In this document: positions 15,139 through 22,651 of the stretch, piece by piece
Position numbering within the stretch: position 1 is the stretch's first letter
Layout of the letters: each line of letters opens with the position of its first letter
Program-made: the position numbers and the translations under genes
Source: Streptomyces malaysiense
GTDB taxonomy: Bacteria; Actinomycetota; Actinomycetes; Streptomycetales; Streptomycetaceae
Reading direction: 5' to 3'
Assembly: GCF_000980885.2 (NCBI RefSeq)
Contig: NZ_LBDA02000006.1
Span: forward strand, 62,001 to 126,000
Length of the DNA stretch: 64,000 bases
The notes under the pieces: generated by a model
What the model saw: the letters and a program-made list of their open reading frames with translations, nothing else
Told to the model about the DNA's origin: nothing
Database searches by the model: none

Positions 15139-15335
15139 GGCCTTTCCGGCACCCTCCGCGACCTCTCGGACGCGGCCTGTGCCCGCATCCCCGCTGGTCG
15201 TCACGGAGCGTAGAGAAGCTATGTCCCTGAGTGACGAACCTGGTGTATCGTCCCGACAGGGGCAGCGCCGCCTACATCGGCGCCGGGGATGACATTTCAG
15301 ATCTTGTGAGGGGGGCGACGGGCGATGCACGGCCT

Positions 15336-18300
15336 ATGGACGAACGATCCGACGCGGTGGAGCCGCCGAAGGCGGCCCTGGCGCACGGCCGCGGGCAGAC
15401 GCGGCCGGCACACCGCTCACCACACCCACCACCCGCGCCGGCCGGCCGGCCCCCGCAGGCACCCGCACCCGGTCCGCCGGGCCCGGCGGGACGCGGGCGC
15501 GTCACCCACCGGGAGGCCCCGGTGAACGCGCCCACACCGACCACCACCGTCCACGCGGAGGTGCGCGCGCCGCACCCGCACCAGGAACCGCCGGCGCGCG
15601 GACGGGTTACCGCCCCGCGCACCCGCGCCTCCGAACAGCTCGTCCTCGCCCTCGTCTGCGCGGCGTACGCCGTCGGCGCCGCGTTCGACTGGGGCACGGA
15701 CGAGATCGCGCTGGTCATGGGCGACTTCGGGCTCAGCGCCGCGGCCGGCGCCGCCGCCGTCTCCTGCTTCCTCTACGCCCGCGGCCCCCGGGTGCGCTAC
15801 CGCCCCGCCTGGCTGCTGTTCGGCCTCTCCTCGGCCATGGCGGCCCTGGGCAACGCCGTCTGGGGCTGGTACGAGGTCGTGCTCGGCCGGCCCGTACCGA
15901 GCCCGTCGTACGCCGATCTGTTCTTCCTGTGCTTCGCGCCGCCCGCGATCGTGGGCCTGCTGGTGCTCGCCAGCCGCCCGGTGACCCGGGCCGGCTGGAT
16001 CTGCCTGGGCCTGGACGCCTGGCTGGTCGGCGGCTCGCTGCTCACCCTGTCGTGGAGCCTCGCGCTCGCCCAGGCGGCCCGGTTCGACGGGCCGAGCGTG
16101 GCGCACACCGCGCTGTCGCTGGCGTACCCGCTGCTCGACATCGCGCTGATCAGCATGGTGCTCGCACTTCACTTCCGGCGCGCGCCCGGCAACCGCACCG
16201 CCGTGAACACCGCGATCGGCGCGCTCGCCCTGACCGTGATGTGCGACGCGCTGTTCACCTCCCCGCTGCTGCACAGCAGCTACCGCTCCGGGCAGCTGCT
16301 GGACGCGGGCTGGTTCGCCGGCTCGCTGCTGCTCGCCTACGCCCCCTGGGCCACACCCCGGCCCGGTAGCAGGTCGTCGGCACCGGAGGCGGACGGGCAC
16401 ACCCACGCGGCCTCCGGGCACCTGCCCGCGCCGCGCGCCGCCGACGACCGCTCGCCGTCCGCGCCCGCCCCGACCGCCGAGCACAGCCCCGACCCGGGCC
16501 CCGAGCAGGACCCCGGTTCCGGCCACGACGCGTCCGCGGGTCCCGGATGCGATGGCCACGAGGGCTCCGGACGCGGCTCGTACCCGGAACCGGGCCGCCG
16601 CCAGGACTGCGCGGACGGCCCGTTCGGGCCGCCCCCGGCGTCCGGGCACACCGGCCCCGCCTCCTACCCCGGTGCCGACCCCGTCCGCTATCCGGCCGGC
16701 CGCCCGATCACCGGCTCGCTCGCCGCGCTCACCCCGTACCTCGCCGCCGCGGTCTGCACCCTGGGCATCCTGTACAACGTCCTCAACGGCCGCAGGCCCG
16801 ACCACGTCGTGCTGATCACCGCGGGCTGCGTGGTGCTCGCGCTGGTGATCCGCCAGGGCATCATGCTGCTGGACAACATCGCCCTCACCCAGGAACTGGC
16901 GCAGAAGGAGAACCACTTCCGCTCCCTGGTGCAGGGCTCCAGCGACGTCATCATGATCGCCGCGCCCAACGGCGTCCTGCGCTACGTCTCGCCGGCCGCC
17001 GCCGGGGTCTACGGCCGGCCCGCCGAGGACCTGGTGGGCACCGAGCTGGCCGCCCTGATCCACCCCGAGGACCTGGGCTGCGTGGTGCACGAGGTGCGCC
17101 GCTTCCTCGCCGCCAGCCCGCTGACGGAGCCCGTCACCCGGATCGAGTGCCGCTTCCGCTCCGGCGGCGGGGGCACCTCGCGCGCGAGCGGGGCCGAGGG
17201 CGGGGAAGGCTGGCTGAACGTCGAGTCCACGGTCAGCCGCCACCACGGCGGCCTGATCTTCAACAGCCGGGACGTCACCGAACGCGTGCGCCTCCAGGCG
17301 CAGCTGCAGCACAACGCGGAGCACGACCCGCTGACCGACCTGCCCAACCGCGCGCTGTTCACCCGGCGGGTGCAGCAGGCCCTGTCCGGCCGCCGCGCCA
17401 CCGACCGGGGCGCCGCCCTGCTCGGCACCGCCGTGCTCTTCATCGACCTCGACGGCTTCAAGGCCGTCAACGACACCATCGGGCACCAGGCCGGCGACGA
17501 ACTCCTCGTGCAGGCCGCCCGAAGGCTCCAGGACGCGGTCCGCCAGGGCGACACCGCCTCCCGGCTGGGCGGCGACGAGTTCGCGGCCCTGATCGTCGGG
17601 GACGGCACCCATGACCGCGCCGCCCGGGAGCGCGACATCCTGGAGCTCGCCGACCGCCTCAGGACGACCCTCTCCCAGCCCTACGCGATCGACGGCAACG
17701 ATGTCCGGGTCAACGCCTCCATCGGCGTCGCCTTCGCCGAACCGGGGCTCGGCGCGGGCGAGTTGCTGCGCAACGCCGACCTCGCGATGTACCGCGCGAA
17801 GTCGGCCGGAAAGGGCCGCGTCGAGCTGTACAAGCCGCAGATGCAGCAGGACGTCGTGCGCAAGGCGGAGCTGGCCACCCGGCTGCGCGCCGCGCTGCAC
17901 GACGGGGAGTTCGCGCTGCTGCACCAGCCCGTGGTGTGCCTGGAGGACGGCCGGATCACGGCGGTCTCGGCGCAGGCCCGCTGGCGTTCCTCGCAGGGTG
18001 TGCTGTTCACCCCGGCCGAGTTCCTGCGGGTGGCCGAGGGCGGCGGCAAGACGGCCGAGCTGGACCGCTGGACCCTCCAGGAGGCCGTGGCGGGGGCCGC
18101 CGAGCGGGCGGCGAGCGGTCTCGTCGTACCGGTGGCGGTGCGGATGAGCGCCCGGCGGCTGCTGGACCGCTCACTGCCGCCCGGCTCGGTGGAGGCGCTG
18201 CTGACCAGATACGGGCTGCCGCCCGGGGCGCTGGTCGTCGAACTGTCCGACACCGATCCCGGGCTCGGGCTGGACGAGCTGGAGCGCAGGCTGACCGCGC

Positions 18301-18881
18301 TGAGCCGGCTCGGGGTGCGCATCGCGCTGGACGGCTTCGGCAGCGGCCACGCGGCGATCACCGCGCTGCGGCGGCTGCCCGTGGACATCCTCAAGCTCGA
18401 CCGCGGCCTGGTCGAGGGCGTGGTGGACTCCGCGCGGCTGCACAAGATCACCAGCGGGCTGCTGCGCATGGCCGGGGACCTCGGGCTCCAGTCCGTCGCC
18501 GAGGGCGTGGACCTGCCCGAGCAGGCGGTGGCCCTGCGTGCCATGGGCTGCACCCACGGCACCGGCGCGGCCTTCTCCGGCCCGCTGGACGAGTACCGGC
18601 TGCGCCGGGCGCTCGGCGCCGGGTCCTGCCCGGTGCCGCACACCGGGACCGGAGCGCACGCGGCGGCCGGAGCGCACGCGTCGGGCGGCCCCCACGCGCA
18701 GGGCGGCCCGCACGCGCAGGCCGGGTCCCACGCGCCGGCCGAACCCGCGTTCGCGGGCAGAGTGCGGGAAACCCAGGGGCGGCTGGGTGCCGCGGGGGTG
18801 TACACCGGAGGAGTACCCGCTGTTTTCGGAGGCAGCAGTGCCCTTCGCTCACATTCTGAGACGCCCGTCCCACCCACTTGA
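15336..18881 (+). CDS. Membrane PAS-GGDEF protein with degenerate EAL domain, probable diguanylate cyclase
   Basis: This ~1181-aa protein has several predicted helices (~100-345), a Pro/Gly/Asp-rich linker (~345-455), two further helices, a PAS domain (~525-650; LVQGSSDVIMIAAPNG), a GGDEF domain (GGDEF at 745-749) and an EAL-like domain. The GGDEF domain looks active: FIDLDGFKAVNDTIGH and SRLGGDEF, with a product-inhibition I-site RQGD at 736-739, exactly five residues before GGDEF. The EAL half appears dead: EAL reads SAQ (~878-880), the NVS Asn is gone (RMSARR), and DDFGTG is DGFGSG. It should make rather than degrade c-di-GMP. The Ala/Gly/His-rich C-terminus repeats AGAHA / GGPHAQ units. 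Start is uncertain: ATG 15336 keeps codon bias, but GTG 15522 has a much better ribosome site (GGGAGG). It lies directly upstream of the ilvB leader. Confidence 0.88.
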   Translation: MDERSDAVEPPKAALAHGRGQTRPAHRSPHPPPAPAGRPPQAPAPGPPGPAGRGRVTHREAPVNAPTPTTTVHAEVRAPHPHQEPPARGRVTAPRTRASEQLVLALVCAAYAVGAAFDWGTDEIALVMGDFGLSAAAGAAAVSCFLYARGPRVRYRPAWLLFGLSSAMAALGNAVWGWYEVVLGRPVPSPSYADLFFLCFAPPAIVGLLVLASRPVTRAGWICLGLDAWLVGGSLLTLSWSLALAQAARFDGPSVAHTALSLAYPLLDIALISMVLALHFRRAPGNRTAVNTAIGALALTVMCDALFTSPLLHSSYRSGQLLDAGWFAGSLLLAYAPWATPRPGSRSSAPEADGHTHAASGHLPAPRAADDRSPSAPAPTAEHSPDPGPEQDPGSGHDASAGPGCDGHEGSGRGSYPEPGRRQDCADGPFGPPPASGHTGPASYPGADPVRYPAGRPITGSLAALTPYLAAAVCTLGILYNVLNGRRPDHVVLITAGCVVLALVIRQGIMLLDNIALTQELAQKENHFRSLVQGSSDVIMIAAPNGVLRYVSPAAAGVYGRPAEDLVGTELAALIHPEDLGCVVHEVRRFLAASPLTEPVTRIECRFRSGGGGTSRASGAEGGEGWLNVESTVSRHHGGLIFNSRDVTERVRLQAQLQHNAEHDPLTDLPNRALFTRRVQQALSGRRATDRGAALLGTAVLFIDLDGFKAVNDTIGHQAGDELLVQAARRLQDAVRQGDTASRLGGDEFAALIVGDGTHDRAARERDILELADRLRTTLSQPYAIDGNDVRVNASIGVAFAEPGLGAGELLRNADLAMYRAKSAGKGRVELYKPQMQQDVVRKAELATRLRAALHDGEFALLHQPVVCLEDGRITAVSAQARWRSSQGVLFTPAEFLRVAEGGGKTAELDRWTLQEAVAGAAERAASGLVVPVAVRMSARRLLDRSLPPGSVEALLTRYGLPPGALVVELSDTDPGLGLDELERRLTALSRLGVRIALDGFGSGHAAITALRRLPVDILKLDRGLVEGVVDSARLHKITSGLLRMAGDLGLQSVAEGVDLPEQAVALRAMGCTHGTGAAFSGPLDEYRLRRALGAGSCPVPHTGTGAHAAAGAHASGGPHAQGGPHAQAGSHAPAEPAFAGRVRETQGRLGAAGVYTGGVPAVFGGSSALRSHSETPVPPT

Positions 18882-18914
18882 CACGTGGTGCGCCCCGGGG
18901 GGAGGGTCAGTGCC

Positions 18915-18956
18915 ATGCGCACCCGAATTCTCGTACTTGGACAGCGCGTCGGCTGA
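18915..18956 (+). CDS. ilvB leader peptide MRTRILVLGQRVG (13 aa)
   Basis: A 13-codon ORF with GGGGGGAGGG eight bases upstream encodes consecutive Ile-Leu-Val-Leu. The codons are ATT, CTC, GTA and CTT; three of these are rare in this genome. That is what a ribosome-stalling sensor of charged branched-chain tRNAs should look like. It lies 168 bases before ilvB, with an intrinsic terminator between. Leader peptides of this type have been proposed for actinobacterial ilvB operons. Confidence 0.85.
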   Translation: MRTRILVLGQRVG

Positions 18957-19011
18957 GCTGGGCCCTACCGGAACGCGATCCGGAATCCCCAGCGACCCTC
19001 ACCGGCGCGCT

Positions 19012-19045
19012 CCCCTCGCTTGCCTTACGGCACGAGGGGTTTTTT
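19012..19045 (+). terminator. ilvB attenuator (intrinsic terminator)
   Basis: CCCCTCG (19012-19018) pairs with CGAGGGG (19033-19039), with an inner TGCC/GGCA helix and a TTAC loop, followed by six T's (19040-19045). A factor-independent terminator ahead of ilvB and behind the leader peptide makes a classic attenuation unit. A preceding short hairpin CCGGA/TCCGG (about 18968-18983) could belong to the competing structure. Confidence 0.85.
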
Positions 19046-19124
19046 GTTGCACGAGTGCCCCTCGTACGACACCCGAACTCCGTCCGACCCTCGCAAAAAT
19101 CCTCAGCATCGAGAAGAGAAGCCG

Positions 19125-20975
19125 ATGACCGAGCAGGCCACCGGGGCCCATCATCCGCAGCCCCGGCCCCGATCCGGCGGACAGCACTCCGCCCCCGTCG
19201 AGCACGTCACGGGCGCGCAGTCCCTCATTCGCTCCCTCGAGGAGGTCGGCGCGGACACGGTGTTCGGGATTCCGGGCGGCGCGATCCTGCCGGCCTACGA
19301 CCCGCTGATGGACTCCACCCGGGTGCGTCACGTCCTGGTCCGCCACGAGCAGGGCGCGGGCCACGCGGCCGAGGGATACGCGCAGGCCACCGGGAAGGTC
19401 GGCGTCTGCATGGCGACGAGCGGACCGGGCGCCACCAACCTGGTCACCCCGATCGCCGACGCCCACATGGACTCGGTGCCGATGGTCGCGATCACCGGCC
19501 AGGTGTCGTCGAAGTCGATCGGCACGGACGCCTTCCAGGAGGCGGACATCGTCGGCATCACCATGCCGATCACCAAGCACAACTTCCTGGTGACCAAGGC
19601 CGAGGACATCCCGCGGGTCATCGCCCAGGCGTTCCACATCGCCTCCACCGGGCGCCCCGGCCCGGTGCTGGTCGACATCGCCAAGGACGCCCTCCAGGCG
19701 AAGACAACCTTCTCCTGGCCGCCGGTCATGGACCTGCCCGGCTACCGCCCCGTCACCAAGCCGCACGCCAAGCAGATCCGCGAGGCCGCCAAGCTGATCA
19801 CCGCCGCCAAGCGGCCCGTCCTCTACGTCGGCGGCGGCGTCCTGAAGGCCAAGGCCACCGCCGAGCTGAAGGTCCTCGCCGAACTCACCGGGGCACCCGT
19901 CACCACCACCCTGATGGCGCTCGGCGCGTTCCCCGACAGCCACCCGCTGCACGTGGGGATGCCGGGCATGCACGGTGCGGTCACCGCCGTCACCGCGCTG
20001 CAGAAGGCGGACCTGATCGTCGCCCTCGGCGCCCGCTTCGACGACCGCGTCACCGGCAAGCTGGACAGCTTCGCGCCGTACGCCAAGATCGTGCACGCCG
20101 ACATCGACCCGGCCGAGATCGGCAAGAACCGCGAGGCCGACGTGCCCATCGTGGGCGACGCCCGCGAGGTCATCGCCGACCTGGTCCAGGCCGTGCAGAA
20201 GGAGCACAGCGAGGGTCAGCGGGGCGACTACAGCGCCTGGTGGCAGGACCTCAACCGCTGGCGCGAGACCTACCCGCTCGGCTACGACCGGCCCGAGGAC
20301 GGCTCGCTGTCCCCGCAGGCCGTCATCGAGCGCGTCGGACAGCTCGCCCCCGAGGGCACCATCTTCGCGGCGGGCGTCGGCCAGCACCAGATGTGGTCCG
20401 CGCACTTCATCCAGTACGACCGGCCGGCCACCTGGCTGAACTCCGGCGGCGCCGGAACCATGGGCTACTCGGTCCCGGCCGCCATGGGCGCCAAGGCCGG
20501 CCGGCCCGAGCGGACGGTCTGGGCGATCGACGGCGACGGCTGCTTCCAGATGACCAACCAGGAACTGACCACCTGCGCCCTGAACAACATCCCCATCAAG
20601 GTCGCCGTCATCAACAACGGCGCGCTCGGGATGGTCCGCCAGTGGCAGACTCTGTTCTACAACCAGCGCTACTCCAACACCGTGCTGCACAGCGGTCCCG
20701 ACGACGTCAACCCCGAGGCCAGGGGCACGCGGGTGCCGGACTTCGTGAAGCTGGCCGAGGCGATGGGCTGCGTGGGGCTGCGCTGCGAGCGCCCCGAGGA
20801 CCTGGACAAGGTCATCGAGGAGGCCAATTCCATCAACGACCGTCCGGTGGTCGTGGACTTCATCGTCCACCAGGACGCCATGGTGTGGCCGATGGTCGCC
20901 GCCGGCACCTCGAACGACGAGATCATGGCCGCCCGGGACGTCCGCCCCGACTTCGGCGACAGCGAAGACGACTGA
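19125..20975 (+). CDS. ilvB: Acetolactate synthase large subunit
   Basis: This 616-aa ThDP- and FAD-dependent enzyme condenses two pyruvates (to valine/leucine) or pyruvate and 2-ketobutyrate (to isoleucine). The activating Glu lies in [16 protein letters not shown]. The ThDP motif begins at [19 protein letters not shown], and the FAD/central domain shows [17 protein letters not shown]. The first ~35 residues ([16 protein letters not shown]) are a loose extension before the Pyr domain. ATG 19125 follows GAGAAGAGAA. It is the first gene of ilvB-ilvN-ilvC, with a leader-peptide attenuator controlling entry. Confidence 0.97.

Positions 20976-20997: not shown

Positions 20998-22651
<1,654 letters not shown>

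Follow-up and report, generated by a model that had tools for sequence, protein, structure and literature searches.

A single valine codon with nearly fixed spacing to a terminator-abutting hairpin: a possible form of attenuation ahead of ilvBNC in Streptomyces malaysiense and other Actinomycetia

Several ilvB leaders of Actinobacteria have been described. In S. lividans TK24, the available text of one report gives for ilvL the peptide MRTRILVLGKRVG, hairpins and a U-rich stretch (PMC8079986, Table 4), describes this ilvL as leaderless, and also makes known a leaderless leuS leader (PMC8079986). Streptomyces ilvB leaders had been predicted in 2005 by Seliverstov et al., who, in the sections available, called the mode of regulation unclear and, citing earlier work by Craster and others, reported that exchanging codons of the ilvB leader in S. 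coelicolor had no regulatory effect (PMC1262725). In C. glutamicum, the accessible text describes a “fast” attenuator of ilvBNC in which the leader peptide begins one nt from the transcript start and the control codons are CUU and GUA, and mutants indicated that expression depends on the terminator (PMC11857589). According to the available part of the M. tuberculosis work on ilvB1NC, changing LVVI to AAAA abolishes induction, and removal of the ilvB1 terminator eased the phenotype studied (PMC13236596). There is a puzzle here: the Streptomyces ilvB leader resembles an attenuator, yet codon changes in it are reported to be ineffective. The analysis below suggests one reason, namely that a hairpin touching the terminator would need no overlapping antiterminator, and that a single codon at a fixed distance should then matter most.

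The window analyzed here is a 64-kb stretch of Streptomyces malaysiense DNA; its coordinates refer to the forward strand unless stated otherwise. An I/L/V-run leader peptide and a terminator directly upstream of ilvB, a feature of actinobacterial ilvB leaders, occur in it: ilvBNC is preceded by a 13-codon uORF with three rare branched-chain codons and by an intrinsic terminator. The uORF, ilvL (18915-18956; ATG at 18915, stop at 18954-18956), encodes MRTRILVLGQRVG and has a homologue in S. lividans. Its codons are ATG CGC ACC CGA ATT CTC GTA CTT GGA CAG CGC GTC GGC TGA, so that ATT CTC GTA CTT occupy positions 5-8. Counted over six genes of the window, ATT makes up 5/128 Ile codons, GTA 6/300 Val codons and CTT 11/318 Leu codons, while CTC is common (97/318 Leu codons). 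The earlier note on this DNA had proposed a 13-aa branched-chain leader peptide ahead of ilvBNC with rare ATT, GTA and CTT codons; the peptide is there and widely conserved, and each of the three codons is scarce in the six genes. A 25-base signature of the uORF was present in 367/392 genomes of the genus, and the reversed control pattern in 0 among the matches listed; in one genome (G199) the signature matched twice, once per strand. Downstream lie ilvB, the acetolactate synthase large subunit (19125-20975; NCBIfam NF005860 and TIGR00118 above cut-off), ilvN, the small subunit (20998-21522; TIGR00119 above cut-off), and ilvC, ketol-acid reductoisomerase (21653-22651; TIGR00465 above cut-off), with serA next, from 22889. 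Among the matches listed, the closest relatives of this ilvB are from Streptomyces. No Rfam family reached its gathering score anywhere in the 64 kb.

For comparison, we assembled a set of loci. A scan of named genomes contributed 80 loci, the best 80 of 593 confirmed matches, from which L044 was left out as too short. The window was added, as were 29 more loci (L082-L110) and 80 stretches drawn evenly across the class. A uORF and terminator were found in 179/189 loci examined, and L102 was dropped for an over-extended terminator call, leaving 178. The class part of the sample comprises 109 of 147 other sampled genomes (the 38 not included stood mostly lower in the match list), and the unit is present in 103 of these 109. 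We divide the 178 loci into a “Streptomyces group” of 66, which takes in Kitasatospora and Peterkaempfera loci, and the remaining 112.

A -35 box, TTGACA, lies at 18878-18883 and is followed after an 18-nt spacer by a candidate -10 box, GAGGGT, at 18902-18907. In the Streptomyces group, the distance from the end of the -35 box to the uORF start is 31 nt in 64/66 loci and 30 nt in the other 2, and in the -10 hexamer A at position 2 and T at position 6 are each found in 97% of the 66 loci. Over the whole sample, 164/178 loci (66/66 and 98/112) have a TTGACA, matched at 5/6 bases or better, whose last base falls 28-33 nt ahead of the uORF, compared to 3.3% of dinucleotide shuffles given the same test. 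The earlier note had named a strong ribosome site, and the purine stretch in question coincides with the -10 hexamer; the call is a natural one, given that the stretch does resemble a Shine-Dalgarno sequence within the Streptomyces group, where a 5-nt match occurs in 51/66 loci vs 15% of shuffles. Outside that group, no Shine-Dalgarno match of at least 4 nt was seen in 61/112 loci vs 59% of shuffles. The purine stretch before the ATG is thus more likely a -10 region than a ribosome site: its position fits a -10 box, the spacing to TTGACA agrees, and the S. lividans ilvL is reported as leaderless. With Shine-Dalgarno matches near the shuffle level outside the Streptomyces group, a leaderless uORF is the better reading; transcription probably starts at the uORF ATG or a few nt from it, and translation of the uORF would then need no Shine-Dalgarno sequence. 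Upstream of the -35 box, an imperfect palindrome, TGAGAC-N4-GTCCCA (18857-18872, not assigned to a strand), is a candidate operator. Its general form, TGRGAC-N4-GTCYCA, is conserved in the Streptomyces group (64/66 loci; 2/112 of the others) and begins 57-59 nt before the uORF start; by eye, the palindrome is a poor match to the published NdgR motif. The gene upstream of ilvL (15231-18881) encodes a PAS-GGDEF-EAL (cyclic di-GMP) protein, and its stop codon falls inside the ilvL -35 box.

Sequence and folding place an intrinsic terminator, CCCCTCG..CGAGGGG plus T6, at 19012-19045 between the leader ORF and the first structural gene, with the stem at 19012-19039 and the T-run at 19040-19045. This is the intrinsic terminator with T6 that the earlier note had described. 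The folding of 18915-19045 beats that of all 200 dinucleotide shuffles (z -3.9). The terminator at 19012-19045 escaped a simple terminator scan, perhaps owing to a 2-nt bulge in its stem. Directly after the T-run, GTTGCAC (19046-19052) recurs in 64/66 Streptomyces-group loci and in 7/112 others.

In a classical attenuator, an antiterminator overlapping the terminator would be expected, and the search for one gave a largely negative answer. Equilibrium terminator probability said nothing about antitermination at E. coli leu and his and almost nothing at trp; we therefore chose a capture measure, in which the RNA is masked up to the assumed ribosome edge and upstream pairing of the terminator 5' arm is scored before the 3' arm exists. 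All seven E. coli controls (thr, leu, trp, his, ilvGMEDA, ilvBN, pheA) showed stall-dependent capture, which was highest with the ribosome in the regulatory run (0.66-0.99) and at most 0.11 with the ribosome at the stop codon. In the window, capture of the terminator 5' arm was 0.27 when stalled and 0.21 at the stop, and the test found no antiterminator there. The claim of a “textbook” and “complete” attenuator thus fails on this point, the window lacking by this test the overlapping antiterminator that the controls display. Nor did the test back a GGAAAGCG-CGCUUGCC antiterminator that had been spotted by eye in Streptomyces. Across the 178 loci the median stall-dependent change in capture was 0.03-0.04. 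Stalling raised capture by more than 0.4 in 7/178 loci (3/66 in the Streptomyces group, 4/112 in the others), stalled capture exceeded 0.5 in 17/178 (8/66 and 9/112), and stalling disfavored the terminator in 3/112 loci outside the Streptomyces group (L111, L117, L172). Hence, the classical mechanism may be partly at work in some loci.

What folding does predict is a hairpin, P1, immediately before the terminator. Its 5' strand, AGCGCGTCGG, spans codons 10-13 (18943-18952), its 3' strand, CCGGCGCGCT, lies at 19002-19011, 0 nt from the terminator stem, and between them is a variable inner hairpin, P2 (18954-19001). P1 thereby pairs the final uORF codons with the bases immediately ahead of the terminator, and in most loci it begins inside the uORF. 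The gap between P1 and terminator in the Streptomyces group is 0 nt in 61/66 loci and 1 nt in 5/66; over the full sample, a helix of at least 5 bp ending no more than 3 nt from the terminator was present in 172/178 loci vs 18% of shuffles. The folding of the P1 region has a median z of -4.0 over the 178 loci and a z below -2 in 159, and the strands of P1 occur in 71 distinct pairs. Plain folding misplaced some P1 calls, and the alternation of GC and CG in P1 is partly a register shift.

The position of P1 bears directly on a classical reading of the locus, in which P1, extended by a few pairs, would take bases of the terminator 5' arm and so exclude the terminator, as in the shared-GCC model for C. 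glutamicum, whose mutants are reported, in the accessible text, to fit shared bases (PMC11857589). Contiguous extension of P1 in the Streptomyces group takes 0 terminator bases in 61/66 loci and stops 1 short in 5/66; among the other 112 loci it falls short in 77 and takes 0 in 27, 1 in 5 and 2 in 3. These counts leave out extensions across a mismatch or bulge, which some folds do show, and such extensions, together with the eight loci that overlap by 1 or 2 nt and the 17 with stalled capture above 0.5, leave this reading some ground. Against it stand the lack of contiguous overlap throughout the Streptomyces group and in most other loci, and a stall-dependent change in capture near zero where all seven E. 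coli controls are positive. We consider base sharing unlikely to be the explanation. Folding holds P1 and the terminator together without conflict, and any block that P1 imposes must therefore be steric or kinetic.

The second regularity is the spacing between P1 and one valine codon. In the window, GTA (18933-18935) starts 10 nt before P1, and GTA is found at 9-11 nt in 168/178 loci: the in-frame codon starting 9-11 nt before P1 is GTA in 66/66 Streptomyces-group loci and in 102/112 others, and GTA never takes this position out of frame. These counts come from a helix search that was blind to GTA and allowed gaps of 0-4 nt only. In the class sample, the spacing holds for 96/109 genomes, 57/64 genera and 30/32 families. 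Outside the Streptomyces group, the best 3-nt interval contains 0.89 of last-GTA positions. The corresponding fraction is 0.37-0.63 for the start codon, run start, run end or stop, and it is 0.58-0.76 when the last CTC, CTT or ATT is taken instead. There, the last GTA sits at 9-11 nt in 100/112 loci, or 91/103 distinct uORFs. Over 2000 draws, a codon picked at random from the branched-chain run reached the same position in 27 of 112 loci on average and never in more than 43. When the stretch from GTA to the terminator was shuffled, the spacing arose in 394/3360 cases (11.7%), and the median P1 score was 12 vs 24 for the unshuffled loci. The spacing is absent in 13/109 sample genomes. Six of these (L093, L102, L130, L150, L174, L186) lack the unit or were dropped, and in the other seven the helix search placed P1 elsewhere: plain folding gives 9-11 nt for L096, L099 and L125, in L101 a preceding GTA lies at 10, and L159, L175 and L182 fit neither way.

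With GTA in the A site, P1 starts at +13 to +15 from the first P-site base. The mRNA enters the ribosome at about +13 to +15 on the same scale. Under the boundary assumed here, whose exact place is uncertain, a ribosome at GTA would cover 2-4 nt at the start of P1. Codon choice in the leader is also skewed. Among distinct uORFs, A/T-ending codons account for 43/64 of the branched-chain-run codons in the Streptomyces group and 245/413 in the others, vs 2% of Ile/Leu/Val codons in ilvB; GTA provides 16/16 and 123/173 of the run's Val codons vs about 1% in ilvB; and CTG provides 0/30 and 15/170 of its Leu codons vs about 60% in ilvB. Other degenerate uORF codons end in A/T in 18-35% of cases, and part of the A/T-ending bias is therefore not specific to branched-chain codons.

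Taken together, these features suggest an element built unlike the textbook attenuator, in which one valine codon keeps almost the same spacing to a hairpin that abuts the stop signal. Scarcity of charged Val-tRNA for GTA, or of Leu- or Ile-tRNA for the preceding codons, would make the ribosome wait while its A site contains GTA or a codon before it. P1, beginning just ahead of the mRNA entry, would then remain folded and, perhaps with the ribosome stationed there, would prevent terminator closure inside the exit channel of the polymerase, allowing readthrough into ilvBNC. When amino acids are ample, the ribosome would pass GTA, open P1 from its terminator-side base and reach UGA, upon which the terminator would close. 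Sequence comparison and calculation establish the uORF, the predicted terminator, the promoter geometry, P1, its contact with the terminator, the spacing of GTA to P1 and, in the folding test, the lack of an overlapping antiterminator. Induction of the operon through branched-chain codons and the function of the terminator are carried over by analogy from M. tuberculosis and C. glutamicum, and we infer that P1 would block termination without sharing bases, by space or by speed, and that GTA would be the decisive codon. Against this reading count the S. coelicolor codon changes without reported effect, the conflict-free folding of P1 with the terminator, the loci with high or stall-dependent capture, the 13/109 sample genomes lacking the spacing or the unit, and the few nt of P1 that a ribosome at GTA would cover. 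As a joint explanation of ilvL, a leaderless uORF, a stall at GTA and a terminator blocked by contact with P1 have, in our estimate, an even chance of being correct.

A different role for P1 is conceivable, as a pause hairpin that synchronizes ribosome and polymerase while another structure antiterminates, for instance the CUCGU codons pairing with ACGAG in the terminator 3' arm. The two are complementary in the window, and a pairing of the terminator's right shoulder with the loop of the uORF hairpin has been proposed in the available text on Corynebacterium (PMC10272879). A ribosome waiting at the CUCGU codons would cover them, though, and the terminator 3' half has no CGAG in 62/178 loci, 54 of which still retain TCGTA in the uORF (e.g., L067, L106, L151). 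On the same counts, we rejected CUCGU-ACGAG pairing as the cause of CTCGTA conservation, and the pause-hairpin account as a whole appears quite improbable. A second pairing has a narrower distribution. At 19110-19118, before ilvB, lies CGAGAAGAG, whose CGAGAA complements the UUCUCG of leader codons 5-7. CGAGAA is present between terminator and ilvB in 63/66 Streptomyces-group loci and in only 7/112 others, and this pairing was dropped as a class-wide cause of the conservation; it may have a role within Streptomyces.

It could also be that the streptomycete leader contributes little, that control lies with initiation, for example through NdgR, and that the terminator only sets a fixed level of readthrough. 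The S. coelicolor codon substitutions reported to be ineffective (PMC1262725) would agree with such a scheme, as would the binding of NdgR upstream of ilvB described in the available text of PMC4340878 and the conserved palindrome upstream of the -35 box. The class-wide conservation of P1, of the GTA spacing and of rare codons is hard to explain unless translation of the leader has a function, and the M. tuberculosis reporter data, in the part available, speak for the leader codons (PMC13236596). We consider a leader of such slight effect very unlikely.

Returning to the contact between P1 and the terminator, we propose more tentatively, and with rather more doubt than belief, that it defines a class-wide attenuator of Actinomycetia: an antiterminator that would share no base with the terminator, a ribosome at a fixed GTA 9-11 nt before P1 that would keep P1 against the terminator base, P1 or the ribosome that would sterically block closure of the terminator, and an advance by one codon that would open P1 from the terminator side. 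In leuS leaders, a leucine codon may serve as the same kind of ruler. If true, the scheme would give stalled ribosomes a second means of preventing intrinsic termination, one present across a large bacterial class, and would bear on the engineering of valine producers and on inhibitors of branched-chain amino acid synthesis. In the open-licence literature, we found neither the GTA spacing nor hairpin contact without overlap described.

Evidence from other leaders is more limited. In the leuS leader of the same genome (L227, reverse strand; MRAVRLLLSGPR followed by a stop), a hairpin folds directly against the terminator, and plain folding sets this P1 four nt earlier. Among 30 leuS loci from 60 genomes, a leucine uORF and a terminator were found in 12 and none in 18; in the 12, a Leu codon lies 10-11 nt before P1, and P1 ends 0-2 nt from the terminator, in a search restricted to gaps of 0-4 nt and with adjacent Leu codons that make a chance match likely. 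Two leuS loci (L242, L245) have a second candidate uORF that shows no fit. A leuS ruler with a leucine codon is thus a weaker proposal than the GTA result. The scanned part of L225 upstream of a TrpE match, whose gene start was not located, showed no uORF containing a pair of adjacent Trp codons, a result of little weight. In other classes of the phylum (L209, L210, L211, L213, L217, L219, L222), short LVLI-like uORFs occur upstream of ilvB, some of them near T-run hairpins.

Comparison with the known systems shows what the locus shares with them and where it departs. Like E. coli trp, his, thr, leu, pheA, ilvGMEDA and ilvBN, it has a leader peptide, putative regulatory codons and a terminator before the structural genes; in those seven, a stalled ribosome leaves upstream RNA free to pair with the terminator 5' arm, which was not found in the window. 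The Corynebacterium ilvB-II leader, in the text available, likewise has a uORF spanning a hairpin just upstream of the terminator hairpin before ilvB, whereas the antiterminator proposed for it uses the terminator 3' arm (PMC10272879). With M. tuberculosis ilvB1NC, as given in the accessible part of that report, the likeness extends to a uORF of branched-chain codons, a GUA that is marked as regulatory there and an intrinsic terminator, and would take in the induction on branched-chain amino acid limitation; in M. tuberculosis, however, the antiterminator and terminator are mutually exclusive and the peptide run is LVVI (PMC13236596). In C. glutamicum the antiterminator lies directly beside the terminator hairpin, as P1 does in the window with a gap of 0. 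According to the available text, the C. glutamicum hairpins share a GCC trinucleotide that is central to the model (PMC11857589), whereas those of the window touch with no base in common. Such a shared boundary trinucleotide is not seen in our sample, contiguous overlap being 0 or less in the Streptomyces group and reaching 3 in none of the 178 loci. The S. lividans ilvL and the 2005 predictions are closest, with the same gene position and an almost identical peptide; the available text of these sources does not describe an antiterminator, the GTA spacing or the P1-terminator contact (PMC8079986; PMC1262725). The element is best read as the ilvL attenuator of a streptomycete, a member of an already known kind, and across the sample compared here it is the contact between P1 and the terminator, rather than the sharing of bases, that is kept.
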